Below are positions 8,245 through 54,794 of a stretch of 64,000 nt of DNA, in pieces. How positions within the stretch are numbered: the stretch's first letter is position 1; each line of letters begins with the position of its first letter. A program made the position numbers and the translations under genes. This stretch comes from Cliona cf. orientalis (lineage: Eukaryota > Porifera > Demospongiae > Clionaida > Clionaidae): assembly GCA_963930775.1 (NCBI GenBank), contig OZ005695.1, positions 5,890,001 through 5,954,000 on the forward strand, written 5' to 3'. The notes beneath the pieces were generated by a model. It was not told where the DNA came from, made no database searches, and saw only the letters and a program-made list of their open reading frames with translations.

Positions 8245-8376
8245 CTAGAGTTTACTCTGGTCATGAAAATCAGGATGCACTTCATTGTGAAGTAAAAAGT
8301 AATCCACCACTTTGTACATTCCTTTAGGCCGAATAAGATGCATGTGATGATTTCCCGGGACTGTTATCACTTTAAC
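8245..8376 (-). CDS. SERHL-like gene, terminal exon
   Basis: Acceptor AATGCAG then VKVITVPGNHHMHLIRPKG, a helix segment VVDYFLLHNE and a TAG stop, 43 residues in all. VPGNHHMHL matches the SERHL2 segment with the catalytic histidine. Phase 0 at the acceptor fits the donor at 20707. Confidence 0.85.
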   Translation of the reverse strand, partial: VKVITVPGNHHMHLIRPKGMYKVVDYFLLHNEVHPDFHDQSKL

Positions 8377-11300
8377 CTGCATTACACCATACAAGTACCA
8401 GGTGTTTAATAATAACTTGTAAAATTATGTATGTAGGTAGAATTAATATATATGGCCAGGAAAATAAAATTATAGTTTCTCGGGCTTTTTCAGCTAAGAA
8501 ATGATGAGTGGCTTTTATTATTTTCTTTGGGCGTGGTCCATCACTAACCATGCCCATTTACCGATGACCTCGCGCAAAAAAGTGACTGGTCTTAGTTAAT
8601 CTATAGTGTCTTGTAGCTTAGCCATCAAAGAAGCGGTTTGAGAAGTCAGATGTCTGCCAGAGAGTGGCAAGGCTGATGCTCAAACACAGCCAGCCAACGA
8701 GATCAAGCAGTATAAGCTTGACATTTTAAGCCGTTAATTTAATTACCACAATCACTTAATTAAAAGGACCCAGCAGCCAAAAACTGATGCGGCGGGCCTG
8801 AGAAACTATTTTTTTTTGCCTGGTCTAATATGATACGGTACATGTACTACAATGGGTGCATAGAAAATACCCTGATGAACACCACTGGGCAAGATTTCAG
8901 TGGGGGGGGGGGGGGGGGGGGGGAGGAAAGGAAAGGAGAGAGAGATGTGGTGGGGGAGAGGGGAGCGTGTATTTCCCTTGGTGCTGCGGTGCAAATGATC
9001 AGTGATCCCAACGACTAGCTAGTTAATATACGGGACAGTATTCGACGCGCAATTTATAAATGACTGCGCACAGACACAATTCACGTATGTTTTACATAGG
9101 CTCCAACTGTCCCTGAATCTCCGGGACAGTCCCGGATTTTTAGCAATTGTCCCGCGTCCCGGAAGGTTCTTCTATAATTGTATTATTGGTCCCGGAAGAG
9201 GTCCAGACACTAGCATAAACACTGTAGTAGTAGTACAACTAATCACTTATTGGTGGTAAAATGAACAAGCTGCTTGTGGTAGTGCCTTACAAACTTTGCA
9301 TGCAGCTGGTTTTTACAGTAGCAACACTACAGGAGGTCTACTAGGCTTGCAAATTCATGCTCTAGAAAATATATTCTGGGCTTTGTGGTCATCAAATTCA
9401 ATCATATTGGGTGTGGTGTGGGCGGAGTTTTAATTAATGATGGACAGATCTAGTGGGTGTGGTCCATGTCCCTGGAGCTGTTCAGGAAAGGTTGGAGCCT
9501 ATGGTTTTAATGCAGTTCAGCTGGAAATGCGAATGAACTGTCGATCATTTCCAGATGTAAACAAAGTCCAAATTTCCGCGTCAAATTTTGAAGACCAGAG
9601 ACTCGTACGAAACGACTCCACTGTCGTTAACGATAGTCCATCAATCGGAGCAGGGCAAAGTATAGTGCTTTTTCAAAAACTCGAAGATGAGACAAGGTTT
9701 TGTCCTGGAGGGCCGCCATCAAGCGAGTCACATGGCAGCTGATCAGTAAGTTTTTATGTTTATTTTCTATTCGTATAACTCAACGAAGTTCAAACACTAT
9801 ACTTGGCCCTGTAGAGACTTGTAAGCTATTGTTTTGTTCGTATGTCATTACATACAGGCTGTTTGCCTTGGCAAAAACTGACGCAGAAAATAGCAATACT
9901 TACCCGCGCGTGTAGACGGACAGTGGTAGGTTTGCTTATTGGTTTTGTGATCCATGGGGCAGGTATCAGGAGAGCTACTTACCTGTGTCTTGACTGTGCA
10001 AAGAACTTGGACAAAAACTGAAATATAACTGTTATTCATGTGAACTATGACCATGCATGGGCGGAACACTATCCCGTAACCTCAATCACTTCAAGTTATT
10101 CGATAAAAACATATACCAGAAAGCGACATTTTTCTACACGAGTTTTATTTATGCGAATTATGCGAGTCAAGCAGCAGTCGCATAAATCAACTGTTAATTG
10201 GGGGGAGGGGGGACACATTGCAAGAAACTGCCATGTCCACTTTCACCCCAAAATTTTTTCTGGATAAAATCCTGCTGAATATCATTATGCAATTAATGTA
10301 GAATGGCAGGGAGTTCTAAATAGCTGCACTGCTGTACAATGGTGATTGCTTTATAGTCCCTATTCTACAGGGCTGCCATAATCTTACAATTAATCCTAAG
10401 GAACATACCCCAAATCCTGAGATAATCATGGAAAACACCAGTACTGTACCTTATGGGAGTAGAAGGATAAAAAATCCCAATATTTGAATATGTGACCAGA
10501 TTTTGGAAAACCCTCCATATGGGATTTTTTCTGAAAACTGAGTTTGATGTATGGTTGATAAGCTCTACCATAGAGCTAACCCGCATTCACGTTTTAGGCT
10601 GATCGCACGCTTCGTGGTGAAGATACAGCACTTTGTTTGCGATCCCAATATTTGAGAAATTACAGTCTAAAGGCGTTGCTATGCACACGTATGGCGTTTC
10701 CGCATACTATGTGTGAACCGAAACTCAATTAAATGGCCCTGGGTGGGGCCATTCGATATGAACGTAAAGATCAAGCAAGGGTCGAATTTCATCGTCCAAA
10801 ACGACAGCCAATTGTTCTTCGATGCCCAGGAAGCTCAAAAGGTGAGCAAACTTCAGTAGTTCGATGAATCTAGATAACCCGCTGGCGGGAATTCTAATTA
10901 GCACCCATAGTAAAGGGCTCCGGGTACAGCAGCTGTGCCAAATAGGTGGGTCAAATGAAGGCTTATTTCACCTTTGTATAGCACAATTAGCCTCCGTAGA
11001 CAACGGTAACAGTTAGAAGAAGGGTTGTTCGACTTCAGGAGTAGATTAGATAGGAGTGTTGAACTACAGTACAAACGTAGTAAAAGCGTTCCGGTAGGAT
11101 GACGTAGACAAATTGTAATCAAGGCTGACATGCGCTATCAACATCTTGCATTCTAAGTGGGTGTTATGTAAACGCAGACTGCAGCTGTACTACTGTATAG
11201 TGCAGCTGGTACTATGGTAGGCCGGGGTGGGACACACGCTGTACTCACCTACATGACCTCAGATTCATTTACGCGCATATTATCTACATCATCCTCCCGG

Positions 11301-14300
11301 AACACGTTTGCATGTAGTTCAACACTCCTATCTAATCTACTCCTGTCGACATGTATACAGCCGTTAAGCAAGTGGTCCAATTGTTGCAGATCCAGGAAGT
11401 GCATCCGGTGGCACATTCCAGTGCATGCAATTTTGCCGTTTTTTATCTATTTTTCTTACCTGTTCTATCTAGGCCATCTTTCACTTCTAGGACTCCAAAC
11501 AAAGACCAGAAGACAGAGGAACTCTTCTACTTTCTGCTCATTAAAGTCACATAACCTGGAGACATTCATGAGCTCCACGGCAACCGCTTTTGTGCATGCT
11601 ACTCTCAAGCGCTCACAAAAAGTACCTCGCGTAAAAAGTGGCACGTTTTGGTTCCCTAGGATGGATTCCCATGATTCAAGTACCATTCCTGTAGCTCTTG
11701 TATTGCTCTACAATATAAGACTGGAATGAAGTTTTTCCATCGAGCGGTTCCAAAGTTACACACTGTTAAAAATAGTATAAATTTTTGTTAATTCACCATA
11801 GAAACATTGAATAAAATACATATAAATCAATGACAACGCTTTCTAGGTGGTACAAAGATATTGTGCAGCCATCAAAGGCCTTCTTGAAGGTTTGCAGAAG
11901 GTTGTTAAAGCTTTCACAATCAGTCTCCTATGCCATCATCACACACTGACAACTGCAGTTGATAGAGAAAGTGCTCAAGCAGCCACAGCGATGGTGCGAG
12001 GACCTAGATCGAGTAGCTAGTTCTCTCTGCAGCACCTCAGAAGATAGCTTCAAAACGTCTGAGGAGGCCTAGGCAGCACCTTCTCTTTGGCAGTGAAACT
12101 CCAGTGCTCCCCCTCTCACCATATCATACTCATCGATAGCTGATCATCACCTAAGAGATTGCGTACGTGCACATACATGGGGTAGGGGTGTGTGTGTGAG
12201 AGAGTGAAAGAAAAAGAGGGAGAGAGAGTGTGACAGGTGGGACAAGTGCTAGCATATTTAACCGCCATGGATGTGAACTTGTGCTTTTCAGCTTCAATGT
12301 CGGCTGATTTACACAAATTATGGCGCAGGTGCATTAAAACTACCTATTCTTTTGCCATTTCAGCTGGCAAGGCTCATCCCTGGACTTCATTATTTACCTG
12401 ATACAGAAGTTAGGTATACTTGCCTCACACTAGCCTCGAATCCCAAGTGAGCCTGGGTTCGAGGCTAGCCTCACACACGCTAGACTATACCATCCAGATT
12501 CGTTCTTGAAAGTTTGAATATAGAAAGAAACTAACCATTTGAATGATGATGTCTGGTCCCTAGAAACTTGGAGAGCACTCCCCTCCTTGGTATTTACTGG
12601 ATAAAATTAATCATCAGACACTCGACAAAACTTTGAGAAGACATGGAGAATACCACGCGGTTGTACTGAAAATTTCCGATTTTTGATGCCGTGTAACTCT
12701 GGAACCGCTCGATGGAAAAACTTTTTTTTAGTCTTATATTGTAGAGCAACACAAGAGCTATGGAATGGTACTTGAATCATGGGAATCCATCCTAGGGAAC
12801 CAAAACGTGCCACTTTTTGCGCGAGGCACTTTTTGTGAGCGCTTGAGAGTAGCATGCACAAAAGCGGTCGCCGCGGAGCTCATGAATGTCTCCGGGTTAT
12901 GGGACTTGAACGAGAAGAAAGTAGAAGAGTTGCTCTATCTTCTGGTCTTTGTTTGGAGTCCTAGAAGTGAAGGATGACCTAGATAGGACAGGTATGAAAA
13001 AATAGATAAAAACGGCCAAAATTTGCATGCTCTGGAATGTGCCACCGGATGTACTTCCTGGATCTGCAACGGTTCTATATGTTTTGGACCGCTTGCTTAA
13101 CGGCTGTATATGACAAAATCTGGATTTTGACAAATTCCAACCTGAGCTACTAAAAACGCGCATTGCGTGAATTGCGTGCGGATCCGTTACAGATGGTTTT
13201 CCCAAATCCGGTCACATATGCTAATGAAGCAAAATTAATGCTCAAAAATCCTAATAATAGGATGAAATCCTAATCTTTGGCAGCACTGAGTCTACTATTA
13301 ATAATAATATCATACGTACTACTGTAAGATCAACAGTTGCAATCTCAAGTATAGGTTAAGTAGCATCGATCCTTCCCCATAATCAGTGACCACAGAGAAA
13401 GGGTCTGGTATACTGTACGTGTTCATACATAATACTCTGAGGGATCAGATTCTGCCATATCCCTGCAGATCTCTTTACTAAGGTTACGGGATAGTGTTCC
13501 ACCCACGCATGGTCAAAGTTCACAATGACAGTTGTATTCCAGTTTTTGTCCACATTCTTTGCACAGTCAAGGCACAGATAAGTAGCTCTCCTGATGCCTG
13601 CCCGGGCCCCCATGGTCCACAAAAACGAAAAGCAAATCTTCCACTGTCTGTCTGCAAGTGCGGGTAAGTATTACAATTTTCTGCGTCAGTTTTTGCCTCG
13701 GTAAACAGCCACTATGTAATGATATACAATGAAACGATAGCTTACGAGTCTCTATAGGGCCAAGTGTAGAGTTTGAACTCTGTTGAGTTACACAAACAGA
13801 AAGCGAACATAAAAACTTACTGCTCAGCTGCCACGTGACTCGCTTAATGGCGGCCCTCCAGGACAAAACCTTGTCTGACAATTCACCATCTTAGAGTTTT
13901 CGAAAAAGTGCTATACTTGGCCCTGCTCCGATCGATGGACTATCGTGAACGACAGCAAAATCAGTTCGTTCGGATCTCTGGTCTTCAAAAGTTGACGCAG
14001 AAATTTGGACTTTATTTATATCTGGAAATGATCGACGTTTGTTCGTGTTTCCGAATAAACCGCATTAAAACATACGTGAATTGTGTCCATGCACAATCAT
14101 TTATAAATTGCGCGTCAAATACTATCCCGTAACCTTAAATGTTCTGTACCATATCCAATTGAAGCAGATTTGAAGTCCAATTATAAAATTTTAGCAGTAT
14201 AGTCGGTTACCGTAGGTTGGGTTTTGAATGCGAGATTCTTTTTATTGCGAGTTGAAAGTTCTTATACAAGACGCAATCAAAAGAATCACAGGAAAAAGAA

Positions 14301-17300
14301 TATGCAACAAATAATTTTACACGTGCTTGCGATCCCAAACATGCATGCGTTCTCACTCTCATACATGTTCGATCTACTTGCATGCATATATGTGCTTACA
14401 GCTGTCGATCGTCGAGAATGAGTTTTCTATGATTCTTCAAGCTAACTGCAGTCAATCTGCCAATACTCAGCCAAGCGCAATTAACTGTTGCTTAATGTGA
14501 CGAAGTGGAGCCACAGGGCGGAGCACATGCACCTGTTTCAGACAGCCCTTACAGGAATATGCGAGACTGAATAGACTGTTATGAGAACAGCACTTGTGTT
14601 AATTGTTTTTGTCTTCCCACACCCCCTAGTTATCGATATAAAGCTGGCTTGTATGATGGTCTATTCTGTTCCTGATCTCTATCTTTAATAATCCTATCGA
14701 ATCTTAATGTGACAAGTTGGAGGCAGCAGTGAGATGTATTAGACCTGAGTACCTGATAGCAAATACGGTCTACCCACACCAATTAGCCCAAGATGGATGA
14801 AAAGAGATAGGAGCTGCAATGTTTCACCATTGACCGCATCAAGGAGCTTTGCGGTGCCAAGCACAGCAAGGTCTATGGAAAGATAAAAGATGCTCTGATT
14901 GAACAGCTTTTGGGAGCAGGACGTCCTGAGAGAGCTGAAGATGGTATGGCAGATGAAGAGAAGCTGCCGACACCCATCCACCTAATGGAAATGGTGATGC
15001 GTATCTGCAAGATCAGAGAGCTTGATTAGAGGCTCAACAGAAGAGACAGGAAGAGATCATGGAAAGGAATTGGAGGGCTTAAAAGGAGCTGCTGGATGCG
15101 GTCCTGACTGTCAGCAGGGCAAGTGAGGAATCTATGCCTCTTGTTGCTCCAGGAAGCTCAAGAGAGAGGGTCAAACCCCCAAGGCCCACTTTGCAGAAAC
15201 TCTCCAAGGAGGATGATATTGAGAGCTTCCTAGATATGTTTGAGAGGGTTGCTGGACAGCAAGGATGGCCAAAGGAGACCTGGGCAACACAGCTGGCAGG
15301 GCTACTCTCAGGAGAAGCCCTAGATGCATTCACTTCAGTCCCCATGAAATCGGCTTGCAACTATGACACAGTGAAAGAAGCTATCTTGGCGAGGTTCCTA
15401 GTGAATGCTGTCACCTACTGTCTGTGGTTCAGAAGCTCTCAGTGGGGGACAGGAGAGTCCTACAAGCTGCTGCTGAGTCAGCAGACTGACCTATTTAACC
15501 GTTGGACACAGTCTGCAGGGAGTGAGCTAAAAGAGATTTGTTTTGCTTGAGCAGTTTTTATCTCTCCCCACAGAGTTGTCAGAAAGCCCTCCACAGCAAA
15601 AGAAGCAGGAAACCCACCTATGCATTCTGCAGTGGTACAGCCTCCAGGAAAGGAATAGATTGAGGGGAGTTTCAAGCCTCCACCAAAGGGCAACTCCGCA
15701 GACTGGGCACCACATTTCGGGGAAGAAGGGAGGAGGCCAGGGAAGCCCCTTGCGCATCATGACCAACCACAAGGGGGAGCTACAGTGCTTCTCTTGTGAG
15801 GAATGGGGCATATCGCTGTCTTCTGCCCCAGTAAGAAATCTACTGGTGTAAAGCCAAGAGAAAACCTCTCTTCAACCAGTCTGGAGAGGAGCAACAGAAA
15901 CCAGCTATCTCCTATCCAACTGTAAGTGTCGCTTTAGAGATTGATGGCTGGTCAAAAGAACTGTCTACTGCAGTGGTGCCAAAGCTTCCAGTTGATGTTC
16001 TGATTAGTTGGACAGACTATATGTCGGTTGATAGACATCGGGCACCACCAGTGGGGCGGTTATGACGAGGTCAGAGAAAAGGAAACGCATGCAAGGCTGT
16101 GAGAGCATGAACAATGGAATTGCTGGGCAATGGGAGGGAAACGGTCCAGCCACAAGGGTGACTAGAGGGCCTGTGGGTCAATACTTCCCCCAGCACCCAC
16201 GGTCTGGCCCTACACAGGCCCCTGACAGACAGCTAGATGAGCAGACCAAGGACCAGAAGGAAAATGCTTCCCCACAAGTGCACACACACACTCCCGCAGG
16301 TGATGTCTTCCAAGCTTCTTTACAACAGTTGGCAGACTGTCAGCATACCGATCCTACACTGAGCAAAATTCGGGAGCTGGCCAGTGGCGGAGAGCAAGCC
16401 CCAGGAAGAGCTTAGTTCTGCTACCAGAACTAGAATGGTCTCCTCTACAGGAAGTGGTCACCTGATGGCACGGCAATCATGTGAAGGCATGTGAGCAGTT
16501 GGTCTTCCCAAAGCAGTGCCAGTCGGCAGCCTTGCTGCTAGTTCATGATGTACCTGCCGCTGGACATTTGGGCGTCAACAAGACTAGAACCCGGACCCTG
16601 CACAGGTTCTACTGGCCTGGAGTATTTAAGGATGTGGCTGACCATTGCAGACAATGTGAGGTCTGTCAGAAAAGTACTGGTAGACGGGACCGGATCAGAG
16701 CTGAGATGATTCCGATGCCTCTCATTAAGAAGGAGCTGGTGAAGTCGTTTGCATGTGTGGGATGAAATTTTTAAGCGATCAGTGCACATCAAAAGGATCT
16801 GCTTCGATGGGATGTTGAAGAGCATATGCTTTGCAAGTTGACTTCCAAGAATCAGAAGGACTGGCATGAGCTCCTGCCCTATATCCTGTTTGCTTACAGG
16901 GAAGTCCCACAGGAGTAGACGGGGTTTTCCCCCTTTGAGCTGCTCTATGGGTACTGTATCAGGGGACCTCCAGACGTTCTCAAGGAAGTTTGGTCTGGGA
17001 AAGAAATGGATAACACCACAGTGGCATCCCATGTGATCACAACGAGGAGGCGGCTCCAGCACCACTATGATGAAAAGGCAAGACCCCAGATGCTTAACCC
17101 TGGAGACAAAGTGCTGGTGTTGGTTCCTGCTAGACGCAGCAAGCTGCAGCTAGAGTGGGCGGGGCCATACAAGGTCACCAGACAGGTTACGCCTGTGGAT
17201 TACGAAGTGGAGACCCCGGGGAGGCGTAAGGAAAAGAAAATTTACCACATTAACCTTTTAAAGAAATGGCATTTTCCCCCTAATCACAGTGCTCTGTTAG

Positions 17301-44300: not shown

Positions 44301-47300
44301 ATGATTAATTTTGGCTTGGGGGAGGGCACATTACCATACCCTCATACCCACACCCTTCAAGAGAAGTAAGACGAAGGGCCTGGTACACACTGCACATGCA
44401 TGTGCAGGGGTACCCCAGAAAAAGTGGGGTAATCAGATACTATCGTATACTCTTGGTTTTCTGTCCATAGAATTGCACGTCATGCAAAACCCACGAACGG
44501 ATCGCTATGGAGACGCCAGTGCATGCATGTACAGTGTGTACCAGGCTCTTTATCCTCCCCTTGAAGGGCCTGGGAACGAGGCTAGTAGTGATTACCAATA
44601 CCCCCATTCCAGGTATCCAGAATGTAGCACACCAGGAGAGGTCAGCTCGAAACTCCATATACATATATATATATCTATCTTTAGAGTCACAGATGACCAT
44701 CCAAATGAACTTGCTGTTAGGATAGGTCAATCATTCACTGTAGAAATGAACAACCAGGCTTGACTACCAATTAAGGATAAGAGCTGCACTTGATGTAAGA
44801 TTTTCTTGGCCTCCATGCTTGAATCAGCTGCTGCAATTGACTCAACTTGTCCTCAGGCAGCCTATATCTCCATAGCCGCTAAATCAATCAAGAATCCCTC
44901 ACAGGGCTGGGGCCCACAACCTTCTCTGCCATGACTAGGAAACCCACTTCACTGCATACACAAAGAGCGAGATCCAAGGTTTTCCCACAGGAATCTGATC
45001 CTGGGTTATCATCTGCAAGAAATCATCCAGGTAATGCGGAATGATTCTAGGAAAAGCTCCAATGATCCACTCCAGAGCATCTACGATAGCATTAAGGATT
45101 TTAGGGGCTGCTCACAAGCTGAGAGGCAGATAGGTAGCGACCATGCCACTGATGTACTGGGACATTGCAGGACACACTGCTTCGATATCCAGCTTTGCTA
45201 GCATGGCTCCACGACCTGCCTTCAACACAAAGGCTGCCACATCCTCCACAGAGGCATAGGAGAGGGAGAGGGAGCACAGAGTAGATAGGATCAATGAAGT
45301 CATCTGGGGATGACAAATCTACAATTAGCCACCACTTTCCAGGCTGGAGCTTCTTGGGAATAATTCCAAATCTTGATGCATGCACCAAAGCAGATGGAGG
45401 TTCTACCAATCAATTACGGCTTGGTTCATTACTGAGATATTTCTCAAAGACTATAGGGTGGAGATCTGCTGCCAGAATGTTTCTTGTTACTGATCGAAGG
45501 GTACCATCATTTGCACAGCAGCCAACACAAAAGCCACACCGTATGCCATCCACTACAAATAGCCTATCTAGATGAGCAGACAGATAGGATTCCCAGATAT
45601 CTGGCGTAAGTGGAGATGAATACTCTGGAGGCAAGATGACTGCTGGAGACACTGCTGCTCTTAATAATTGCTGCATAATTTGCGTATGGACTTCTACAGT
45701 ATATTATTTTGTGAACATGAAATGTTCAATTTTAAAATATCTTTCGCATTATCAGAATTAACGTAGTGACACTATTTGTGCCATCAGAGACTATACCATT
45801 ACCTTGCAGTGCATGAAGTTCTCACAGGGTTCTACACATCATGAGTAGTAAGCCCCAGTCTTACTTAGTATTCTTTTGAGCTGGAATGTACTCTAGGAGC
45901 ATAAGACCCACAGAGTGTAAAATTTGACTTGATGATGATGAGATGGACACTTTTTGTGCTGGATAATCTCACAATTTAAAACATGCAGACATGAACATTA
46001 TTCAAAATAATCGGAGGCAAGCTTGAGCGAGCCCCACATCTGATCGTTCAACGGAAGTTCATCTGTCCGTGTGTCCAGTTTGGCTGACTGAGCATGTGCG
46101 CGAAAATAACACGTGCTCTCTATTGTACCACGTCTCTTTGCCAATTATTTGCGCATGCTCAAATCAAATGACCAGTGTCAAAGGAGATCGAGAAGTTGGG
46201 AAGAAAGGTCCAAGAACGAGGATGTCGGATCCAACATTAGCTAGAGAGAACGAAATAGACAGAGAAGACAGCAACAGAGAGCGAGCGCGGTAAAAGGGTT
46301 CTCGGGATTGAAGCAACGAACGAACGGATCAGTATGTCACAGTAGCTTTGTCAGTACATTCCAGCTTGTGGCATGCTAACAAATTCATATTTACAAATCC
46401 ATTGCTAAGTAGTTGAGTCTTGAAAAAGAATAAAAGGACAACCAGAACCATACAACCCGAGACGCGCATGTGCTGATATCGCGATGTCACTTGCATGATT
46501 TGTGCATAGCTACGTGTGTCATGCACATGCAAACTCGCAAATGCTCACCCCGACGATGAAATACATCACACTAGTATATTAGTAGGAAGATGATATCATC
46601 AGGCAGGGCGAGCCTTTGCTCATGGAATCAGCCTGTTCTCTACGGTTTTTATTTTATGTTATAATGAACACTTGACCATCTCCCCAGTAGCTGCACAGTG
46701 TAATGGTGCATGTGGTAAAAGGTCGTCAATAGAATGCGTACACATCGATTGATGCTGGCCCCAGAAACCATGGAGATGGTGTCTAAGATCGACTCTCAAC
46801 CTTGATAGCGACAAGTTTTGATGCTTCAATCACAGAGACGAACTCGACAGTACAGTATTCCTTCCGAATTTCAGGTTGGTCACGCTGCTGCAGTCGTGCG
46901 TGGGCCAGCCCCTTGTGACAATGATGCGTGCTACAGTGTATATAGCGCAAGGCTAGCTTTATTTATCCATGGCATTACGTAAGCCAAGAAAACACGTGAA
47001 GCTCAACCAACAGTACTTCTCAGAGAAAGTAGCGCTCAGCTTGTAATGTATTCGCTGGATACACACATAAGATACTCTACATATTTACTGATTTTCAAGT
47101 CCCAGAAAGGCTCCAGCAAGGCCCTGGATTTTCCATAATTACCTCATACATGTAGGTTGCATCATAATCTCATCATAATTTCACCATAGGTTACACCACA
47201 ATTACCTCATAACCACAGAAAAGTAAATTGCTACTGGGGAGATAATGATATAAATTCCTTCGTTTTGAGTCACTATTAAAGTCCACTACCACAGCATGGC

Positions 47301-50300
47301 AGGTAAATGTATGTCACCAGTTGCAGTAGTGCCAAGCACACAAGTAATCCAAACTGGCTCTCAGTTTGGCCATGGCATGATTCTTGACATCTTTAAGTAT
47401 GGTACTAAAGCTTTATGTATCTCTTACAATGAGCTGGAGAATGGTGCAATCATTCTGATATGGCATACCACTGAATATCATGCTAACGTGAAGGATTGCC
47501 ACTGCCATGGCTCCAACTCGAACAGAATAAGTAACTCTTGTCGAAAAGTTACCCAATAGGACACTCCACAACACAGATTTTTATCGTCCTTGAGCTCGAG
47601 CCACACTGCACTGCTGCGATTGATCGATCTACTGCATTGATGACGACCTTTACCAGTCACAGAGCTGTCAAACATGTGGTGTTTGAGCGTGCGCATTGTA
47701 TCGTTGCTATGCAAGATCACACACAAATAAATATATATATACACCACTAGCAGTACTATCAGACATTTCTGGGTACACTTCCAGGCATAACTATGGTTGC
47801 AAAAATTCACGAGCATAAAAACGTAACATTGAAAATGTCGATACTACACTCTATTAGCGAGATACACATGTAGCTAGCTAGTCACGCTGAAGGGAAGCAT
47901 CTTATGGAGCCTTTCAACTTTCGCAAAAGCATAATCTCTGGACCTCACTGTGCTTGAGTACAATGTAGCTCAGCTATCAGAATACATAGAGAGTGGCTTC
48001 TGGTTTCTAAATTTGGACTCACCTGAGTGAATGAATTCTGCAGACTTCTGTCAATAATTCCTGCGGAATTGCTTCCTTATAGGTTCAGCCACTCTTCCAG
48101 AGTCAGAAGAACAACTTCTCTGATATTCCTGCTGCGATTCCAGGGATGCCAAAGCAAAATTGGCCTTCCTATCGTCAGGATCCATGCACCTTGGGCAAGT
48201 CATGGCCTCCACACAATGGCTGAGAAATGTTAGGCTGTAGACCATGGGATGGCTAAATGAAGGCTCCTTTTCTCAATCAGTGTGCTCTCAAAACATTTTT
48301 ATTGTAACTCAGCCAGCCCTTGCATCCAAATCGAAGATCTTCCATTAGGATGGTAGCATGATAGGCTAGTATCTCCTAGACCTTTGAAGGGTGGTCTGTG
48401 AGCTTCAATGCATTTGTGGCCATTGCATTTAGGAGGCACCTGTTACCAATTTTCCGTGAAATCTCTCTTCTTGGGAGATTTTGAGGAGCAAGAGGAGCCT
48501 CAACTGATCGCCAATCCAACTCCAAATTGTCTGGTAAGAGCTCAAACACCAATCTGAGAATCTTATGAACCAGCTTGGGTGGAATTAGAGGGAATCCGTG
48601 GCTGAAAGAAAATCTGCAGAGCTGTCATCAGACCCAGTTGATTTGCTGCATTTGCAGCACCAGAGGCAACCACTGAATAGATCTCCTTCCCACTGATTGA
48701 AGAGCCAGCTATAGAGGTAACTCCCGAGAATACAAGATGGTACTCAGCACCTGTAGCTGCCGACACCACTGGCAGTTCCAGAGAGACAACCTGTAGCTGC
48801 CGACACCACTGGCAGTCCCAGAGAGACAACCTCCCTCGAGGAGGGCGTATCCCCAGCGGGGATGCTCCTGCAGCCAGAAGAGTGTACATAAATTTTAAAA
48901 GCTACTGGCCCATGCCAAAATAAAGGAAAAACAGACTATGCAGATTTGTAACAGCACTACAAGATTTGGGAATATCTACTCCCCATTGAATCCGACTGAG
49001 ATTGAGGTTGAGGTCAAGGACTGGCTCCCGACACGTGTTCATCCCTGTCTGCAGAAGCACTTCTATCTGGAGTGGAATTGTCTCCCAGAACTTCGTAACT
49101 CCCGTGGTCATGCTCTACAGAAGTTCTTGCAGTGCTCACTTGGCTTCTCCTTGAGGATATCTTATGTAACACAGCTCGTGCAAACACAGCTCTTTCCTCT
49201 CCCTCTCTATTGAGTAGCTTCGCTGCTTAACTTGCCCGCAGCTTGCTTTAAATATGAACAAGCTGCAACCAGCTCTAGCCAGGGTGGATATGGCACTGGT
49301 GGGAAAACACTTCCTGTCGCTGTCGTCTGGCTGCAACCAGTTTATAGATGCAAATCATCTTGTGCAACCCTTACTCGCACTAGTCTCGTACCCAGCCTCT
49401 TTATCGCACGCAGAAAAAGAGTCTGGTGAAACGCGTATTCAATTTTGGTTCCATACGTACGTGACGTATTCTGACACGGGCACGATGAATGTCATTATAA
49501 GCGATGGCGCAATCACTGTTTAATATTATTATTCGCGCAAAGTGTTTGAAAAGCACCTACCGTAGGCTATGGCGCCAGCGGGATCCTTGGATAGTGGAGT
49601 CCGAGTGCTATGCTTGTCTCGTTGCCTGATTTGTACCCAAAAGGACGGCGGTAAGCTTTCAAAAACAGGAAAAAAATTCTCCTGGTAGACTAAGAGAGAT
49701 AAACACATTCTTGCTGGCTAAAATGTAGCTTACCACTTTCGCCTAAACTTCATAGACACTAGCATGATTCAAACGTGGGATAGTTTCGATGATCGCTTGT
49801 TGAATGTCAGTTTCGCTGTCCAACAACTACATGTAGCCATCTCCTACAAGTAAAGTGCAAAGTACACGGTGAAGCATCGCAATCTTTTATTGATGACGTG
49901 GCACCGTTCTGCAATCTGATTGGACGCGGCCAATCTCACCGCGCGGAACCAAAATTGAATACACGTTTCACCAGACTCTTTTTCCGCGTGTGATAAAGAG
50001 GCTGGGCACGAGACTATACTCGCACAAGGGTACATACATAAACGCGCTTAGAAGGAGGCATGGCACACTGCGTGTGCACGGCCCACAGTCACAATTCGAT
50101 GCTGCGCTGTGTTGCATTACCTGTATGTCAATGCTCATTGCAATATTCCAGTTCTGACCACTTGCAAAGATGCCTATACATCTCAAGATTTTGGCAATGT
50201 TTACAGATGACAACAATGATAGACGAGCAGCATCTTATGAAAAAATATCTATTTTGGTTTCAAATAGCTGCAGCCAATGGCTATAGTGGACAAAAATATG

Positions 50301-51204
50301 ATTTGTTACAGTATAGCATTCATGTCCCTTGTCAATTAGCCAAAAAAGGAATAATTATGGGTCACTATGAGCTACAGCTCTGTGCTTCATGCATGTGTGG
50401 AGGAGTACCATATAGCGGGAATTTTTGTACAGTGCAAAATTTTGCATTTTTGGCAGATAGGTTGGGTGCAACAAAAATAAGAACCCCGAAATTTTAAGAA
50501 AATATGATGTTTACAGCTGTACTGCACTAAAGTACAATTGATCGACATGGAAAATGTGCAAAAATTAAAACTATGAAAATTTCTTCTGAAGGGTTAACAT
50601 GGAATTCCATGAACTTTTACACCAGCAAAAATTTCCCACTATATTATGGTACAATAGTGCTTTGGATCCCTGTGATCTAGGAGAATCAGTGAATACTGAA
50701 ATGGCTGAAACTATACTAACTACAGCAAATGTCCATAACTTTTGCTAGTACATTACTAGTTCACTTTAGAGCCATGCACGTACAAAGAGTTTCATACAAT
50801 AGTGCTGGCCACTCGGAAGATGCGTAGATGTCGAGATCTCGTGATTTTGTATAAACAACAACAGCAACAACATGAACGGCCTTTATGTATGAGCGAGACG
50901 TAATAATATTCCTAGAGCACTCAACATTACTACTCTTAATAACACACACATACATGTAGTCACCTTTGGAGAGTAAAGGGATCAACTTGTCAAAGCTTCC
51001 AGAATTATCAAGCCAACCTAAGTCAAAATACGTACTATGCACAATTATAAAATGTTACTACTATAATAATATCATGCATATGTGTACACGGTTGCTTTAA
51101 TGTTCCCATAATGAAATACTTACCATGCAATGCAAGCACAGGTTTTCCCGTTGGGTTTCCCCATGCCTTGGCTGCAATATGACCCCACGGAACTGGAAAG
51201 GTGG
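8245..51204 (-). CDS. Serine hydrolase-like protein (SERHL/SERHL2 family), alpha/beta hydrolase; eleven exons over 43 kb
   Basis: Exons in transcript order: 51124-51204, 50964-51017, 33576-33689, 33458-33499, 33380-33399, 33239-33313, 32573-32658, 32386-32515, 20957-21018, 20707-20773, 8245-8376 (TAG stop). The protein follows vertebrate SERHL2 along its length: VPWGHIAAKAWG, GWLDNSGSFDKLIPLL, VAIDWPGHGKSSHRPSGV, ALKWEKCSFLAHSMG (nucleophile elbow), FAGALPDRVEAVLLIESYG, LCNRGVEKVDTGGYKFTRD, FLKAIQCPLLVI, GESTLLSSPYFREKL, VPGNHHMHL (catalytic His). About 287 residues are recovered; SERHL2 has 314, and the first exon with the ATG was not found. Every splice phase matches its neighbour, including across the 17.3, 11.4 and 12.3 kb introns, which argues for one gene. 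SERHL proteins are predicted hydrolases whose substrate I do not know. Confidence 0.85.
8377..9030. other. Intronic sequence with poly-G tract
   Basis: No gene. Contains a run of 22 G residues at 8902-8923 followed by a purine-rich stretch; the ORFs over it are compositional artefacts. Confidence 0.6.
9031..10076 (+). mobile_element. CGGGAYAGT-ended TIR element, copy A (holds a nested insertion)
   Basis: Begins CGGGACAGTATTCGACGCGCA after a TA and ends ACACTATCCCG before a TA, consistent with a TA target duplication. Apart from the 415 bp added by the insertion it is about 630 bp and is homologous to the inverted copy at 13487-14129. Near the 3' end both copies can be read as AGIRRATYLCLDCAKN and DHAWxEHYPVT, a Cys-containing peptide resembling a transposase tail, broken by stops here. 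Confidence 0.65.
9095..9503. mobile_element. 409-bp TIR element nested in copy A
   Basis: Ends CATAGGCTCCAAC (9095) and GTTGGAGCCTATG (ending 9503) are perfect inverse complements, flanked by direct copies of GTTTTA (9089-9094 and 9504-9509). The sister copy at 13487-14129 has the uninterrupted sequence TATGTTTTAATG at the same place, so insertion and duplication are confirmed inside the window. Confidence 0.8.
10551..10912. repeat. Dispersed repeat, also present inverted at 60850-61108
   Basis: Shares ATAAGCTCTACCAT, GATCGC, TATGGCGTTTCCGCATACTA and TAGCACCCATAG-type strings with the inverted copy at the right of the window. No coding capacity recognised. Confidence 0.55.
10913..11350. repeat. 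Inverted block within the hydrolase intron
   Basis: About 11030-11130 matches 11280-11345 in inverted orientation (GGAGTAGATTAGATAGGAGTGTTGAACTA and its inverse, with CTACATCATCCT...GGAACACGTTT). Probably parts of a rearranged element; no protein recognised. Confidence 0.45.
11351..11761 (-). mobile_element. Repeat block with 70-codon ORF, left copy
   Basis: The minus strand carries an open frame starting MVLESWESILGNQNVPLF, with RGTFCERLRVACTKAV and LLVFVWSPRSE further on (11686-11465). The block is repeated in inverted orientation at 12691-13112, where most codons are conserved. Family not recognised. Confidence 0.5.
11762..12690. other. Spacer between inverted blocks; no gene recognised
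   Basis: Contains a coding-like stretch on the plus strand at about 11844-12010 (VVQRYCAAIKGLLEGLQKVV) that I cannot place, a TC-rich tract near 12190-12235 and a hairpin at 12429-12468 (CTAGCCTCGAATCCCA pairing with TGGGTTCGAGGCTAG). Confidence 0.35.
12691..13112 (+). mobile_element. Repeat block with 70-codon ORF, right copy
   Basis: Inverted copy of 11351-11761. Its plus-strand frame (12765-12977) starts MVLESWESILGNQNVPLF and stays open to WSPRSEG. Upstream, VTLEPLDGKT and SYIVEQHKSYG read in the same frame after a stop, so the frame was once longer. Confidence 0.5.
13487..14129 (-). mobile_element. CGGGAYAGT-ended TIR element, copy B
   Basis: A 643-bp copy in inverted orientation to 9031-10076, lacking the 409-bp insertion. 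Minus-strand reading near 13600-13490 gives RRATYLCLDCAKNVDKNWN and DHAWVEHYPVT, uninterrupted, ending at the TIR. Flanked by TA on both sides. Confidence 0.7.
14130..14495. other. No gene seen
   Basis: Short intronic stretch between copy B and the LTR retrotransposon; nothing supportable. Confidence 0.5.
14496..14714 (+). repeat. 5' LTR
   Basis: 219 bp beginning TGTGACGAAG and ending AATGTGACA. It shares GGCGGAGCACATGCACCTGT, CTTCCCACACCCCCTA and a TATAAAGC box with the 3' LTR. Confidence 0.85.
14793..15540 (+). pseudogene. Gag region of the LTR element
   Basis: Starts at an ATG at 14793 that is soon interrupted by a stop, with IKELCGAKHSKVYGKIKDAL then, after a frameshift, an open frame 15134-15540 with IESFLDMFERVAGQQGW and LLSGEALDAF, a capsid-like segment similar to SCAN/Gag domains of Gmr1-type elements. 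Confidence 0.7.
15543..16415 (+). pseudogene. Zinc knuckle, protease region and linker of the LTR element
   Basis: A CCHC-type knuckle is recognisable near 15783-15830 (CFSCEEWG and, one frame over, HIAVFCP), broken by a frameshift. About 15895-16010 reads YPTVSVALEIDGWSKELST and PKLPVDVLISWTDY, resembling the protease segment, but the catalytic DSG/DTG is not intact. The linker 16062-16415 begins MTRSEKRKR. Confidence 0.55.
16441..17440 (+). pseudogene. Integrase region of the LTR element
   Basis: The HHCC zinc-binding domain is intact at 16540-16680 (HDVPAAGHLGVNKTR, then CRQCEVCQKS). The catalytic core is largely missing or broken: only FLSDQCTSKG-like and YREVPQ-like remnants at 16770-16920. 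The C-terminal SH3-like part is clear at 17060-17270 (LNPGDKVLVLVP, WAGPYKVTRQV, YHINLLKKW). This entire block lies upstream of reverse transcriptase. Confidence 0.8.
17566..17976 (+). pseudogene. Reverse transcriptase region (truncated)
   Basis: Fingers and palm motifs of a Gypsy-type reverse transcriptase: PWASPTVLVEKKDG, YRKLN-like DYWKLN, LDLAKGYWRIPM with the first catalytic Asp, KTAFTTPFGLFEF, and MLFGLHNTPATFRRLM. The YxDD motif and thumb are absent: the frame ends at a stop and the MITE follows. Confidence 0.85.
17977..18425. mobile_element. hAT-like MITE inserted in the LTR element
   Basis: Ends CAGGGGCGTAGCCAGGAT and GCTAGCTACGCCCCTG are inverse complements. The 8-bp sequence CTGGGTGT stands on both sides (17969-17976 and 18423-18430, overlapping the terminal CTG), consistent with the 8-bp duplication of hAT elements. 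A related copy is at 43897-44272. Confidence 0.75.
18431..18600 (+). pseudogene. RNase H tail of the LTR element
   Basis: Reads GLHLYIDSTLLLRWI and KNKNQRLTRWALSLQP, the end of a Gypsy-type RNase H (DHxxLxW...R..RWxLxLQ). The sequence expected between the reverse transcriptase and this point is mostly deleted, independent of the MITE. Confidence 0.65.
18612..18840 (+). repeat. 3' LTR
   Basis: 229 bp beginning TGTGATGAAGC and ending ACGTGACA. It differs from the 5' LTR by substitutions and several short indels, so insertion is not recent. Confidence 0.85.
18841..19129. other. No gene seen
   Basis: Short intronic stretch; an extra copy of GTGCTACAGAGCAAGAGAGCAAAACTT at about 19068-19094 precedes the palindrome. 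Confidence 0.5.
19130..20461. repeat. 1.3-kb palindrome (fold-back element)
   Basis: Left arm 19130-19770 and right arm 19833-20461 are inverse complements over about 640 bp, with scattered mismatches and a spacer of about 60 bp. Outer ends carry AGTGCTACAGAGCAAGAGAG or its diverged form. ORFs of 65-90 codons on opposite strands are mirror images and not evidence for a gene. A single end sequence recurs near 42090. Confidence 0.85.
20707..21018 (-). CDS. SERHL-like gene, two exons between giant introns
   Basis: Exon 20957-21018 starts in phase 0 with VAYEMDAVFLKAIQCPLLVI and ends two bases into a codon at donor GTAAGT. Exon 20707-20773 (acceptor TTTGCAG) completes Ile and continues GESTLLSSPYFREKLAAVNH, ending in phase 0 at donor GTGACT. 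The strand CPLLVI and the segment after it match the place of the catalytic acid in the family. The two are 183 bp apart and more than 11 kb from exons on either side. Confidence 0.85.
21064..21357. mobile_element. MITE, TACCGTATA family
   Basis: Ends TACCGTATATGTGGAAATTTT and CACTATATGGTAA inverted; interior rich in GGAGAAAA/TTTTCTCC and shares GGGTGTGGCATGCCTA with 61636-61826. It lies 46 bp upstream of a hydrolase splice acceptor. Confidence 0.6.
21358..22307. other. Intronic sequence, no gene recognised
   Basis: Contains a fragment (21940-22030) related in inverted orientation to 58600-58690 (CCTATGCAGGAACTTGAGCTAAA). Nothing else supportable. Confidence 0.45.
22985..23486. mobile_element. 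MITE with ATGCGCTTAAC arrays, nested in the P-like element
   Basis: Ends TACCGTATAAACCGGTTGTTAAG and CTTAACAACTAGTTTCTACGGTA are inverted. The interior holds two tandem units of about 120 bp (from about 23009 and 23133) and more than a dozen TGCGCTTAAC-type motifs. Confidence 0.65.
24333..24716 (+). pseudogene. P-like transposase, coiled-coil region
   Basis: Frame with a CAGCTSYRDMLR Cys-x2-Cys segment, NYQFLSKSKLKDRLRAIH, a predicted coiled coil, and GVDVDEETHDDLLNVMEK. This order (CxxC, YL/FL-S, coiled coil, DLxxIM) is typical of P/THAP9-like transposases of invertebrates. Confidence 0.65.
25148..25222 (+). pseudogene. P-like transposase fragment
   Basis: Reads YEHVYLTSFSKMRVDLAAH, a conserved block of P/THAP9-like transposases, followed by GTATAT at a decayed splice donor. 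Confidence 0.7.
26064..26190 (+). pseudogene. P-like transposase fragment
   Basis: After acceptor TTCTTAG it reads VLSATVMDALKLTGEEAKQT and FIELMDKFFD, then a TAA in frame; a GTAAGT donor follows. It continues the family's conserved block from the previous fragment. Confidence 0.7.
26332..26353. repeat. poly-C tract
   Basis: 22 consecutive C residues inside the P-like element; ORFs reading proline runs here are spurious. Confidence 0.9.
26936..27429 (+). pseudogene. P-like transposase C-terminal fragments
   Basis: YFEDWARSVEAREGFSKTEK (26938-27012) and, after acceptor ATGCAG, VKSFVDMVKYLFTLKGVNFF, then DPLENFFGNQRQCGGVN (27114-27250), an acidic tail LDDDSLEENTPFGKRK and TAA at 27427. FFGxQRQxGGxN is diagnostic of the family. 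At least three in-frame stops are present. Confidence 0.75.
28027..28950. other. Intronic sequence with one exon-like stretch
   Basis: The minus strand from about 28635 to 28500 is open (NIVENLASVCFKWFG, then KYLVLLSDMYAAARE) and ends at a perfect GAG/GTATGT donor. I do not recognise it. The plus strand is also open for 82 codons (28376-28624), so one of the two is a shadow. Confidence 0.3.
28951..29110. repeat. Repeat with AGTTAGACACTGTTTAG end
   Basis: Begins AGTTAGACACTGTTTAG with TTTCTATGTGATTTAGAAG following. Inverted or related ends occur at 31674-31690, 55483 and 56530-56550. CAGTCTGCACGAAGGGGT (29077) is inverted at about 30202-30220, so a larger element 28951-31690 interrupted by others is possible. 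Confidence 0.5.
29517..29704. repeat. Exact tandem duplication, 94 bp x 2
   Basis: CCAAATGTGTTGTACAAAAT starts at 29517 and again at 29611; the units appear identical over 94 bp. Either a very recent event or an assembly effect. Confidence 0.9.
30236..30995. mobile_element. 760-bp non-autonomous element with 57-bp TIRs, related to the P-like element
   Basis: The left end ATAGATCATATAGACTACGT... continues to AATAGAGT at about 30292 and is repeated inverted from 30939 to 30995 with one visible mismatch. Both sides carry GACCGAACC (30227-30235 and 30996-31004). The TIR matches that of the 5.7-kb P-like element (CATAGATNATATAGACTA, GTAACCGGGATTGGAA). An internal plus-strand ORF (30468-30782) and a minus-strand ORF are unrecognised. 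Confidence 0.85.
31490..31910. repeat. GGTGTCTA hairpins and CCTAGCAAC repeat block
   Basis: About 31495-31555 holds nested inverted copies of GGTGTCTA/TAGACACC. The rest (GACTGAAGGGCTCTGTGTAGA, CTAAACAGTGTCTAAC, CCTAGCAACA, CCAATCAGAT) is homologous to 56460-56735. Confidence 0.6.
32386..33689 (-). CDS. SERHL-like gene, central cluster of six exons
   Basis: Six compact exons separated by introns of 76, 58, 66, 580 and 57 bp. They encode the strand-turn IDWPGHGKSSH (33576-33689), the nucleophile elbow FLAHSMG (33458-33499), a 20-bp microexon giving GGAASW (33380-33399), the following helix and strand (33239-33313), a cap segment LMGRSLNNLQSLND (32573-32658, with a weak AAG acceptor) and IRLDTEFDKEAAITLCNRG...FTRDLRAKI (32386-32515, donor GTGAGT). 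The usual GxSxG reads AHSMG. Confidence 0.9.
33830..35460. other. Intronic sequence, no gene recognised; hairpin at 35419-35459
   Basis: No protein family recognised in ORFs of up to 133 codons. A 17-bp perfect hairpin, CAAGAGTAGATAATAAA with its inverse and a 7-base loop, lies at about 35419-35459, just before the DIRS-like fragment. Confidence 0.45.
35490..36390 (+). pseudogene. DIRS-like retroelement remnant: RNase H end and tyrosine recombinase start
   Basis: ELLPLVILCSIWGMSEKHI and NDNAAVV (35510-35620) match the RNase H of DIRS-type elements (ELLPIVLAxxxWG...CDNxAVV). A degraded YTAGTKNKA segment follows. From 36026, VWSISSPNSEECDVQLHG, then FQITSGLGDPGISVMANL in another frame, is the N-terminal core-binding part of the tyrosine recombinase, and MPAILKKSF...CLLLVYCLRKTF the start of its catalytic part. 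Frameshifts and stops throughout. Confidence 0.7.
36391..38008. other. Intronic sequence, no gene recognised
   Basis: 37140-37235 carries an AATTTTCRWGG/CGAAAATTTTATCCC inverted pair resembling the TACCGTATA family. ORFs of 70-96 codons near 37630-37990 match nothing known to me. Confidence 0.4.
38009..38168 (+). CDS. THAP-domain exon (zinc-dependent DNA binding)
   Basis: From the ATG at 38009: MPRNCSIPGCTSRSDKKE, then LSFHKLPTDSDRRHQWLVSI and a YTYIC end. This is the start of a THAP C2CH finger: C-x4-C near the N-terminus, FHKLP, and the invariant Trp. The third Cys codon is split by a possible donor (ATAT/GTAATC), so the C-x2-H end would be in another exon, which I did not find. It lies antisense within the hydrolase intron. 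It could be a host THAP gene or another transposase N-terminus. Confidence 0.6.
38471..38542 (-). CDS. Short first exon with CxxC zinc motif
   Basis: 24 codons, MADFHKEVLRKHCRVCAKAL then ARFK, ending at a GTGAGC donor. The KHCRVC start resembles the N-terminal zinc exon of mobile-element-associated gene families in sponges and cnidarians. No following exon was identified, so the assignment is weak. Confidence 0.4.
39088..39684. mobile_element. MITE, TACCGTATAGC family
   Basis: Starts TTACCGTATAGCACAAAATTTTCGC and ends GCGAAAATTTCCGGCTATACGGTA. TTTTCGC motifs recur within both ends. A 79-codon ORF inside (39214-39453) is not recognised. Confidence 0.7.
39847..41100 (-). pseudogene. Unrecognised coding region split by a Penelope-like insertion
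   Basis: Minus strand 41100-40906 is open (PSRLQWGSHFSDQI, KAMIVYLVKILSPILRRKD). It continues in the same frame at 40071-39847 (NFGDNVPTIFFALLEATM, NSFAASFRNG) once the intervening 834 bp is removed, apart from a single TAG at the junction. It looks like part of a mobile-element or domesticated ORF, but I cannot name the family. Confidence 0.45.
40085..40905 (+). mobile_element. Penelope-like element remnant (GIY-YIG endonuclease), head-to-head
   Basis: The plus strand encodes the C-terminal half of the GIY-YIG domain (RVKEHRDACNKGDTWKSAIA, KEALHIERTPANNRLNRDGG, CWIATIKKL). The minus strand of the left part encodes its start (GVVYQIPYQCGKVYVGET) fused to a second copy of the tail (RWIATMKKL). 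Inverted arms of about 230 bp (40085-40320 and 40637-40873) result. CTAAAGCTGGGTA stands at both borders (40072-40084 and 40906-40918), a 13-bp target duplication. No reverse transcriptase remains. Confidence 0.8.
41200..41441 (+). pseudogene. Pogo/Tigger-like transposase N-terminal fragment
   Basis: Reads GKRAAEYGVTASLRYFYKAF, WKLKYNQLV and KKPSRPLILGEDLDKQ. This resembles the helix-turn-helix start of pogo/CENP-B-type transposases (KRAAExG...W...Y...GRPLxLGxxLD). No DDE core follows. Confidence 0.55.
41442..43153. other. Intronic sequence, no gene recognised
   Basis: 41634-41712 is a partial TACCGTATA-family end (GCGGAGAAAACTTTCGC...CTCCCTTGAAAGTTTCCCACCATATG). G/C runs at 41902-41940 cause spurious ORFs. 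42085-42110 carries one end of the palindrome family at 19130. The minus strand near 42720-42500 is open but unrecognised. Confidence 0.45.
43154..43550 (+). mobile_element. CCCCGCGCGC repeat family, copy 1
   Basis: Starts CTAGAGCTCTGTAGAGCACATACCCCGCGCGC and ends GCGCGTGGGGTAA, with AAACCGATTGCTTTACC near the end. Copies of about 390 bp occur at 54404-54794 (inverted) and 58713-59099, a partial one at the right edge. No coding capacity. Confidence 0.75.
43897..44272. mobile_element. hAT-like MITE, second copy
   Basis: Ends CAGGGGTGTAGCCAGGATTTT and CCTGGCTACACCCCTG, same family as 17977-18425. The flanks do not show an exact 8-bp duplication. Confidence 0.65.
44376..44592. repeat. Small inverted-repeat element
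   Basis: GGCCTGGTACACACTGCACATGCATG (44379) pairs with CATGCATGTACAGTGTGTACCAGGC (44521-44546); GAAGGGCCTGG is present at both ends. Probably a short MITE. Confidence 0.45.
44750..45676 (-). pseudogene. DIRS-like reverse transcriptase remnant
   Basis: In order on the minus strand: LTPDIWESYLSAHLDRLFV, ASRFGIIPKKLQPGKWWLIV then DLSSP, SYASVEDVAAFVLKAGRGAM then LAKLDIE, and, after about 150 bp, LEWIIGAFPRIIPHYLDDFL with the HYLDDF catalytic motif. These are the motifs of DIRS-type reverse transcriptases. Stops and frameshifts interrupt it. The DIRS-like ORF1 at 48000-48890 is on the same strand upstream and may be from the same element. Confidence 0.75.
45677..47999. other. Stretch between two DIRS-like parts
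   Basis: No clear retroelement domain. The minus strand at about 46880-46765 repeats the coding-like segment of 7944 (QPEIRKEYCTVEFVS). A plus ORF at 47296-47559 (MAGKCMSPVAVV) is unrecognised. Either this 2.3 kb is inserted in the DIRS-like element or the two parts are separate fragments. Confidence 0.4.
48000..48890 (-). pseudogene. DIRS-like ORF1 (Gag-like) remnant
   Basis: Minus-strand readings FSHGFPLIPPKLVHKILRLV, FELLPDNLELDWRSVEA and PRREISRKIGNRCLLNAMAT fit ORF1 proteins of DIRS-type elements (PxIPxKLVxxI...LLPDNLEL). Upstream is a Gly/Ala/Ser-rich stretch containing a 40-bp tandem duplication at about 48750-48832 (CCTGTAGCTGCCGACACCAC twice). Stops and frameshifts present. Confidence 0.6.
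49381..50016. mobile_element. TIR element with 9-bp target duplication
   Basis: Ends TAGTCTCGTACCCAGCCTCT... and their inverse pair for about 70 bp (49381-49452 and 49948-50016). TACTCGCAC flanks both sides (49372-49380, 50017-50025). TIR length and 9-bp duplication suggest a Mutator-like derivative; no transposase. Confidence 0.8.
50017..50404. other. No gene recognised
   Basis: Intronic stretch; a 145-codon plus ORF (50060-50497) runs into the next MITE and resembles nothing known to me. Confidence 0.4.
50405..50652. mobile_element. MITE, TACCGTATAGC family
   Basis: Ends TACCATATAGCGGGAATTTTTG and CAAAAATTTCCCACTATATTATGGTA. Confidence 0.65.
50964..51204 (-). CDS. SERHL-like gene, first two recognised exons
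   Basis: Exon 51124-51204 (acceptor TTGCAG, donor GTAAGT) encodes TFPVPWGHIAAKAWGNPTGK and the strand ending VLALHG. Exon 50964-51017 (acceptor TTAG, donor GTGACT) completes the Gly codon and encodes GWLDNSGSFDKLIPLLSK. HGWLDN corresponds to the oxyanion-hole HG motif of alpha/beta hydrolases. The 106-bp intron between them is clean. An upstream exon supplying the ATG and ending with one codon base is needed and not seen. Confidence 0.9.
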
Positions 51205-52904: not shown

Positions 52905-53645
52905 ATCGTATAGCGGGAAACTTTCGGTGGTGCTAATTTTCATATGATTGACCAAAGCACCCTTAGAATAAATTTTCGCATTTTTTAATTTCGTATGCTT
53001 GCTGTGGGAGATTGCGCGCATGCGCAGCTGATAGCGCTCACACTTACGTGCAATATATGGTTTTGACGCCTTGACAAAGAACCGATATATAAGAGACAGT
53101 GATGTCGCTATAGCGCGGTAGAGCGGCGCCGCGCCGCTCTATCCTGCCGAGAATTGGACGGGGCCATATGTATTCTACAATGGGAAGCTGTACTGGGCAT
53201 GCCTATAGTTACTAGAACTACATACACCTACTGATTACTACCAGCCAGCCAGTTGTTATTACAAGTACACACCACAGGAGCCTTTGCATACAACCACAAG
53301 TATGGAGCACTGTAAACACTGCTGTGGTCACTGCCCCCTCTGCATGCAGTGATAACTGTTTTTATGGTACATATGTCAGATGTTGCTGCCATGCTTCCAC
53401 CGCTCTCTAAGTTTTCTAGCTACAACCCTGAGAGACATCGTTCAGTGAGCTAGCCTTGCATTTAGCACCTGCCACTAGCGACCGCGTGTGGCCATGGTAG
53501 GCATATAGGTCATAGGTCATGCGTGAAAGGGAAAAAATTTTTCTTACGTTCAAATTTTCGCAGTTTTTATTTTCATATAAGGGATGGAGCATACGAAATA
53601 TACGAAAATTAGCACCATACGAAAATTTCCCACTATACGGTATTA
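52905..53645. mobile_element. MITE, TACCGTATAGC family, long-TIR copy
   Basis: TATCGTATAGCGGGAAACTTTCG...GGTGCTAATTTTCATATG at the left is inverted at the right (CGAAAATTAGCACCATACGAAAATTTCCCACTATACGGTA), TIR about 42 bp. Interior holds GC-rich hairpin GAGCGGCGCCGCGCCGCTC near 53124. Confidence 0.75.
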
Positions 53646-54235: not shown

Positions 54236-54403
54236 ATATCACTTTCAGCACTATCGCGGCTATGATTATTATGGTAATGTTATACTGCACCTCTCACACA
54301 CAATCAATACACGATGGGTGTGGCACACCGGGAAGTATAGATACCACATGGGTGCCACACCCTTCAGCTCACCGTGCATGCATGCATGTGCACCAAAGAG
54401 TTA

Positions 54404-54794
54404 TTACCCCGCGTGCATGCGCAAGGGGTAAAGCAATCGGTTTGTCCGTCTGTTGTCGTCGTCGTCGGCACGAAAATCGCCAGATCTCGCGTTCTAGGCA
54501 TCTGTGCGTGCTGTAAGCACAACCAATCGGTAGATATCGGTGAAAAACTGGTTTGTAAGCGCTTCAAATTGCTCAAAAAGGCTTAGTAGTGCTATAAATC
54601 GTGCATTTTCTGTTCAGCATGCCTGTGGTTTATCGACCACACCCACTCTTTTAATATGCTGATGCGACTGCGCATGCTCAAATTCAGTGTTGGAAAGGGT
54701 CATCAAGTCATGAAACAGCTATGCCTCAGAGTGTTGCAATACTACGCTACAGTGGCTACACAGCGCGCGGGGTATGTGCTCTATAGAGCTCTAG
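54404..54794 (-). mobile_element. CCCCGCGCGC repeat family, copy 2
   Basis: Inverted relative to copies 1 and 3: TTACCCCGCGTGCATGCGCA at the left, GCGCGCGGGGTATGTGCTCTATAGAGCTCTAG at the right. Confidence 0.75.

Follow-up and report, generated by a model that had tools for sequence, protein, structure and literature searches.

A SERHL-type hydrolase gene with giant introns rich in mobile DNA in the sponge Cliona cf. orientalis

SERHL and SERHL2 (serine hydrolase-like; Kraken in the fly; PF00561) are the closest described relatives of the protein reported here, with which they share homology from end to end and the HGWLDN, GHG and HSMGG-type motifs. Several of the aligned relatives have an SKL-, GKL-, AKL- or ARL-type C-terminus, as does the sponge protein. 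The nearest solved structures by sequence, 7al5 and 7al6 (probable hydrolase), align with residues 38-322 (E 1.1e-48) and have the same catalytic serine, but they comprise 286 residues and their aligned part lacks the SKL end. Zebrafish Serhl is counted among the PTS1 proteins in the available portion of PMC8919083, and the fly homologue Kraken is tabulated as not localising to peroxisomes in that of PMC7477296.

In the compact genome of the sponge Amphimedon the median intron measures 71 bp (PMC5429095, available text), and intron retention accounts for most of the alternative splicing (PMC4432959, available text). A gene for 340 residues whose introns add up to 46 kb, in a genome of 217 Mb, makes a useful test case for the stretching of genes by insertions, and prediction programs that allow for short introns may break up such genes or miss them. 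We present a locus that very probably represents an intact, single-copy SERHL-type alpha/beta-hydrolase gene of 13 exons, with introns grown by insertion and one ~47-kb pre-mRNA spliced to a 340-residue message ending in SKL.

Gene model and predicted protein

The window, the whole stretch of DNA analysed (64 kb, C7:5890001-5954000), belongs to a genome of 216.8 Mb in 149 contigs. Splicing 11 minus-strand exons from the window, a chain proposed in the sequence-only reading on its agreeing phases, gave a single open frame, with 296 full codons before the stop at 8245, and all ten introns have GT..AG ends. Their lengths are 106, 17274, 76, 58, 66, 565, 57, 11352, 183 and 12330 bp, which agrees with the giant introns of 17.3, 11.4 and 12.3 kb first described; the seven short introns were also found, over a range of 57-565 bp and not 57-580 bp. 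That reading described a 43-kb gene of 11 exons and about 300 residues, and its exons were retained but not its extent. An upstream exon pair (55354-55271 and 55195-55150), which has a start codon and correct phases and keeps the frame, extends the minus-strand model to 13 exons and 12 introns between 55354 and 8245 (span 47110 bp). The full model encodes 340 residues (1023 coding bases with the stop codon), and its introns add up to 46.1 kb. The exons are of 20-132 bases, eight of the introns are of 57-565 bp, and neither stops nor frameshifts nor broken splice dinucleotides occur in the 13 exons.

Candidate exon 1 (55271..55354), with the start codon and the sequence MLFSSYKIAF..., is in frame and has a GTGAGT donor; its sequence is not conserved, and as an exon placed by frame and splice signals it is the least certain of the model. 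Candidate exon 2 (55150..55195), which ends in SKE, is in frame between an AG acceptor and a GTAGGT donor, and its last full codon encodes a Glu found at the same place in at least eight of the 11 aligned relatives. If both are right, intron 2 (51205..55149) measures 3945 bp. Exon 3 (51124..51204) is identified by splicing and an own-genome match of 90%, and exon 4 (50964..51017) by splicing, with a GTGACT donor into the 17274-bp intron 4 (33690..50963). The next group comprises exon 5 (33576..33689), exon 6 (33458..33499), which carries the nucleophile-elbow serine in AHSMG and is also recognised from the solved-structure relative, the 20-nt exon 7 (33380..33399), exon 8 (33239..33313), exon 9 (32573..32673) and exon 10 (32386..32515); all six rest on splicing, and exons 5, 8, 9 and 10 on own-genome matches as well. 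Beyond the 11352-bp intron 10 (21034..32385) are exon 11 (20957..21033) and exon 12 (20707..20773), the latter with a GTGACT donor into the 12330-bp intron 12 (8377..20706), and finally exon 13 (8245..8376), which contains the stop and encodes a C-terminal SKL, a PTS1-type signal. Exons 11 to 13 are supported by splicing and own-genome matches, and exons 11 and 13 also by the protein alignment; the three giant introns were delimited by splicing and characterised by repeat search. All these features are on the minus strand. The same weak donor, GTGACTAC, follows AAG at both 50964 and 20707.

The acceptor of exon 11 was originally placed at 21018, which also keeps the frame but drops 15 bases encoding PSLLK. 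It was corrected to 21033 because the relatives carry residues of this kind there.

The protein search returned 528 database matches at E<=1e-3, the best at 7.5e-100. The top five (P0001-P0005) cover 94-100% of the query at 47-53% identity; they include P0003 from Halichondria panicea and P0005 from Dysidea avara, and P0004 is labelled Em0020g668a, a label that we take to denote Ephydatia muelleri. Among the 120 listed of the 528 matches, SERHL-type names are given to P0003 (Halichondria), P0005 and P0007 (Dysidea) and most of the species-named rows, and the closest species-named relatives are demosponges. The PF00561 alpha/beta-hydrolase domain scored 87.5 bits, against a curated cut-off of 25.8. 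In an alignment that took in 11 of the 120 listed relatives, the protein aligned from end to end with no missing residues at the giant-intron junctions, and the residues invariant across the 11 relatives are kept. The nucleophile serine S139 aligns with 7al5, and the histidines H307 and H310 hardly vary in the alignment. The earlier claim of an intact coding frame was thus borne out, with the catalytic serine and the histidine region conserved.

SKL is a PTS1 peroxisomal signal; it is also the C-terminus of P0001 and P0002, and the sponge P0003 ends in GKL. Judged by its C-terminal letters, the protein is probably peroxisomal, and its import is probable; the negative entry for fly Kraken counts against this.

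Mobile DNA in the long introns

The repeat searches scored the best 39 candidates each, and the copy numbers and covered lengths given here are lower bounds. Each of the three giant introns has parts that occur elsewhere in the genome, at 89-98% identity, and their total share is likewise a lower bound. Intron 12 contains an element of 1.75 kb whose inverted ends measure ~350-430 nt (11358..13106), recognised by its genome copies, 19 of them near full length (89-95%) among the 39 candidates scored, and enclosed in a larger inverted structure (9029-14131). The intron also holds an LTR retroelement on the plus strand, antisense to the gene (14496..18829), with LTRs (14496-14698 and 18612-18829) that are 88% identical. 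Two ORFs were identified in it with Pfam, an Integrase_p58_C ORF (16919-17440) upstream of an RVT_1 ORF (17509-17955). The order of integrase before reverse transcriptase is a mark of Gmr1-type elements, and from this ORF order the element is a candidate Gmr1-like LTR retrotransposon. The Gmr1 clade is named, without the ORF order, in the available portions of PMC8556966 and PMC11117352. The LTR element is older than the recent repeats in the giant introns. A palindrome (19125..20461), also recognised by genome copies, is built from one ~715-bp element that is present twice, head against head or tail against tail, and each half matches at least 11 places elsewhere in the genome (at 97-98% and 92-93%, respectively). 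A transcript of the palindrome could form a hairpin with arms of ~470 bases that are 95% complementary. These three stretches (9029-14131, the LTR element and the palindrome) make up ~10.8 of the 12.3 kb of intron 12; since just parts of 9029-14131 matched other places, it is by extension from those parts that the whole of it would be mobile DNA.

Intron 10 contains a 760-bp terminal-inverted-repeat element (30236..30995) with at least 39 genome copies at 92-97%, one of them interrupted. Intron 4 has a 636-bp element of the same structure (49381..50016), with 36 or more copies (95-98%), as well as a 593-bp repeat (39089..39681) with at least three copies that are 98% identical. Perfect 9-bp target duplications, the mark of insertion, flank the 760-bp and 636-bp elements. 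Pfam, run on 20 of the 49 ORFs of at least 100 residues, identified a THAP domain in a plus-strand ORF (37865..38290), and gave no match for the ORFs at 24282, 45101 and 40282, which we took to be the P-like, DIRS-like and Penelope-like pieces, respectively, that the sequence-only reading names with no coordinates. Of the mobile DNA originally described, the LTR element, the palindrome and the THAP coding piece were all recovered. Scans of the window for RNA families and tRNAs found none with the thresholds applied.

Most of the mobile elements of the window lie within the gene, as had been stated, at least partly because the gene takes up 74% of the window; repeats are abundant in the tested flanks as well (1-8244 and 58600-62900), and a concentration within the gene is not shown.

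In this reading, the gene owes its extent of 47 kb to mobile DNA that lengthened three or four of the twelve introns. DNA transposons, retroelements and short elements with inverted repeats would have been inserted time and again into what are now the 17.3-, 11.4- and 12.3-kb introns, and a fourth, the 3.9-kb intron, may have grown likewise to a lesser degree. The eight introns that stayed at 57-565 bp could be recognised as introns, and the short exons that lie far apart would need recognition as exons. One ~47-kb pre-mRNA would be made, the giant introns spliced out and the protein imported into peroxisomes. To judge from its sequence, the full-length gene would be expressed and correctly spliced; we infer also its enzyme activity and peroxisomal location, the order in which the insertions occurred and the reason why the 3.9-kb intron grew.

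Neighbouring genes and long introns elsewhere in the genome

A GRB2 gene of 210 residues lies at window positions -20391 to -2656 (L019-L021; C7:5869609-5887344); its four introns measure 3747, 8031, 73 and 5252 bp. The best match to its protein is Em0020g666a (89% identity), and P0121-P0124 are at 84-89%. On the other side of the SERHL gene is COQ7, in which the first gap between matches is ~3.3 kb; GRB2 was named from its named relatives and COQ7 from Pfam. The long gaps in both genes indicate that the neighbourhood of SERHL has long introns. The labels of the SERHL match (Em0020g668a) and of the GRB2 match (Em0020g666a) suggest by themselves an old conserved linkage, with the two genes near neighbours in Ephydatia too. 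If such labels follow consecutive places, the linkage supports SERHL as an old resident and not a set of stray exons. The linkage is drawn from GRB2 alone, since the search for relatives of COQ7 gave 16 proteins and no named sponge protein among them. In the window, a 366-residue ORF with a B-box zinc finger (TRIM-like; 57406-58506) lies ~2 kb upstream of the SERHL gene on the opposite strand. On another contig, an 85-kb stretch (C15:5027570-5113004) has seven or more related abhydrolase matches, and the read-through frame of each contains one or two stops.

Proteasome and TCP1/HSP60 genes were used as a control, with 58 gaps in 17 loci, of which the 39 that adjoin in the profile served as an intron proxy. 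These 39 gaps have a median of 347 bp, and 38 of them are shorter than 3.3 kb. The exception is a 16318-bp gap between adjoining exons at C13:3614454-3631017, where the exons continue as ...FTQSG / GVRPFG...; we take this locus to be PSMA2, and a locus on C8 to be PSMB6 (L025-L028 for the two together), both of them essential proteasome genes. The halves of PSMB6 (C8:5408331-5464832) are 56 kb apart on one strand, a gap that is among the 19 outside the profile-adjoining filter. It probably spans 56 kb as one gene, and is no more than probable because 41 profile positions between the halves were not found. The SERHL architecture is therefore unusual in this genome but not unique. The suggestion that the gene is exceptional was overstated in view of GRB2, PSMA2 and probably PSMB6, and of the repeat-rich flanks, and it holds in part, as the gene still stands out from most of the proteasome and TCP1 genes in the comparison.

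The position of genes along chromosomes was also considered. Contigs C1-C19 are of 7.2 to 37.5 Mb each, and were treated as chromosome-sized because C20 and C21 are of 12 and 37 kb. For the proteasome and TCP1 genes (17 of 21 loci, those with at least two matches, with the halves of PSMA2 and those of PSMB6 joined), bases per residue rise with distance from the chromosome ends (rho 0.73, p 0.0009), as does the largest gap (rho 0.61, p 0.009); the idea arose from this same data set. Among mitochondrial carriers (27 of 37 clusters with at least two matches, or 28 with wider joining), the span (rho 0.11 and 0.19) and the largest gap (0.09 and 0.16) showed no significant correlation, in a set whose many intronless genes and partial matches make it a weak test either way. 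A position effect is not claimed, because this second gene set did not reproduce it. Low recombination has been linked with long introns in other organisms (PMC3342960, available text). We put forward, as a tentative and rather doubtful idea, that a subset of ordinary housekeeping genes (SERHL with 47 kb, GRB2 with 18 kb, PSMA2 with a 16-kb intron and PSMB6 with probably 56 kb) lies in chromosome interiors with introns swollen by mobile DNA, and that the introns of most other genes have stayed at a few hundred bases. If this is true, the splicing machinery, in a genome whose introns are mostly short, would need to recognise exons that lie more than 10 kb apart.

Alternative explanations and comparison with known systems

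A gene in decay, with its exons intact but its transcripts ending in the giant introns and the full protein rarely or never made, is unlikely. Two of the three giant introns open with the weak donor GTGACT (versus GTAAGT), and partial retention or early termination is therefore plausible; the lower conservation of SERHL, whose best relatives are at 47-53% (P0001-P0005) against 84-89% for GRB2 (P0121-P0124), is also consistent with decay. Sense AATAAA was counted 6, 7 and 10 times in introns 4, 10 and 12, against 7.8, 6.7 and 5.0 expected, and four times in intron 2, against 2.1 (for a stretch 16 bases too long), and termination signals are thus not depleted. The counts for introns 12 and 2 are above expectation and speak for decay, but those for introns 4 and 10 do not, and decay is argued against by the 13 exons free of stops, frameshifts and broken splice dinucleotides, with their invariant residues kept. 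It is somewhat less probable still that the long introns are kept by selection for regulatory DNA, with the mobile elements as passengers. In Amphimedon, introns that bear enhancer marks exceed the average length (mean 332 versus 256 bp; PMC5429095, available text), but this difference is below 100 bp and not of 10 kb, and the identifiable content of the introns at this locus is mobile DNA.

Long repeats and a palindrome inside introns could also point to an assembly artefact or to two joined haplotypes. This explanation is very improbable given that there is no N in the 64-kb window or in a 124-kb region, that the locus is single in the genome, that clean 9-bp duplications surround the elements at 30236 and 49381, and that the neighbouring GRB2 gene is built alike. 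Two tandem paralogues with mistakenly chained exons can be practically dismissed. A search of the sponge's own genome gave 17 matches, of which eight are exons at the SERHL locus (68-96% identity, ordered on one strand) and the other nine have at most 35% identity; exons 4, 6 and 7 are too short to match alone, and exons 1-2 were outside the query. No second set of the eight exons visible to this genome-wide search was found, and the exons are colinear and do not overlap, in agreement with the sequence-only reading of one gene and not two paralogues. An intact gene with introns expanded by insertion is therefore the explanation that we prefer.

In comparison with SERHL and SERHL2, the gene described here extends over 47 kb, in a genome whose compared genes mostly carry short introns, and its protein has a longer N-terminal extension than the aligned vertebrate and bacterial relatives. 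Heterochromatic and Y-linked genes of Drosophila likewise have short, distant exons and introns filled with mobile DNA, and keep their frame. The sponge gene differs from these in that its introns are of tens of kb and not megabases, and a heterochromatic or sex-linked location is not indicated. Transposon-expanded introns are a known kind of change, of which the SERHL gene is a further example.
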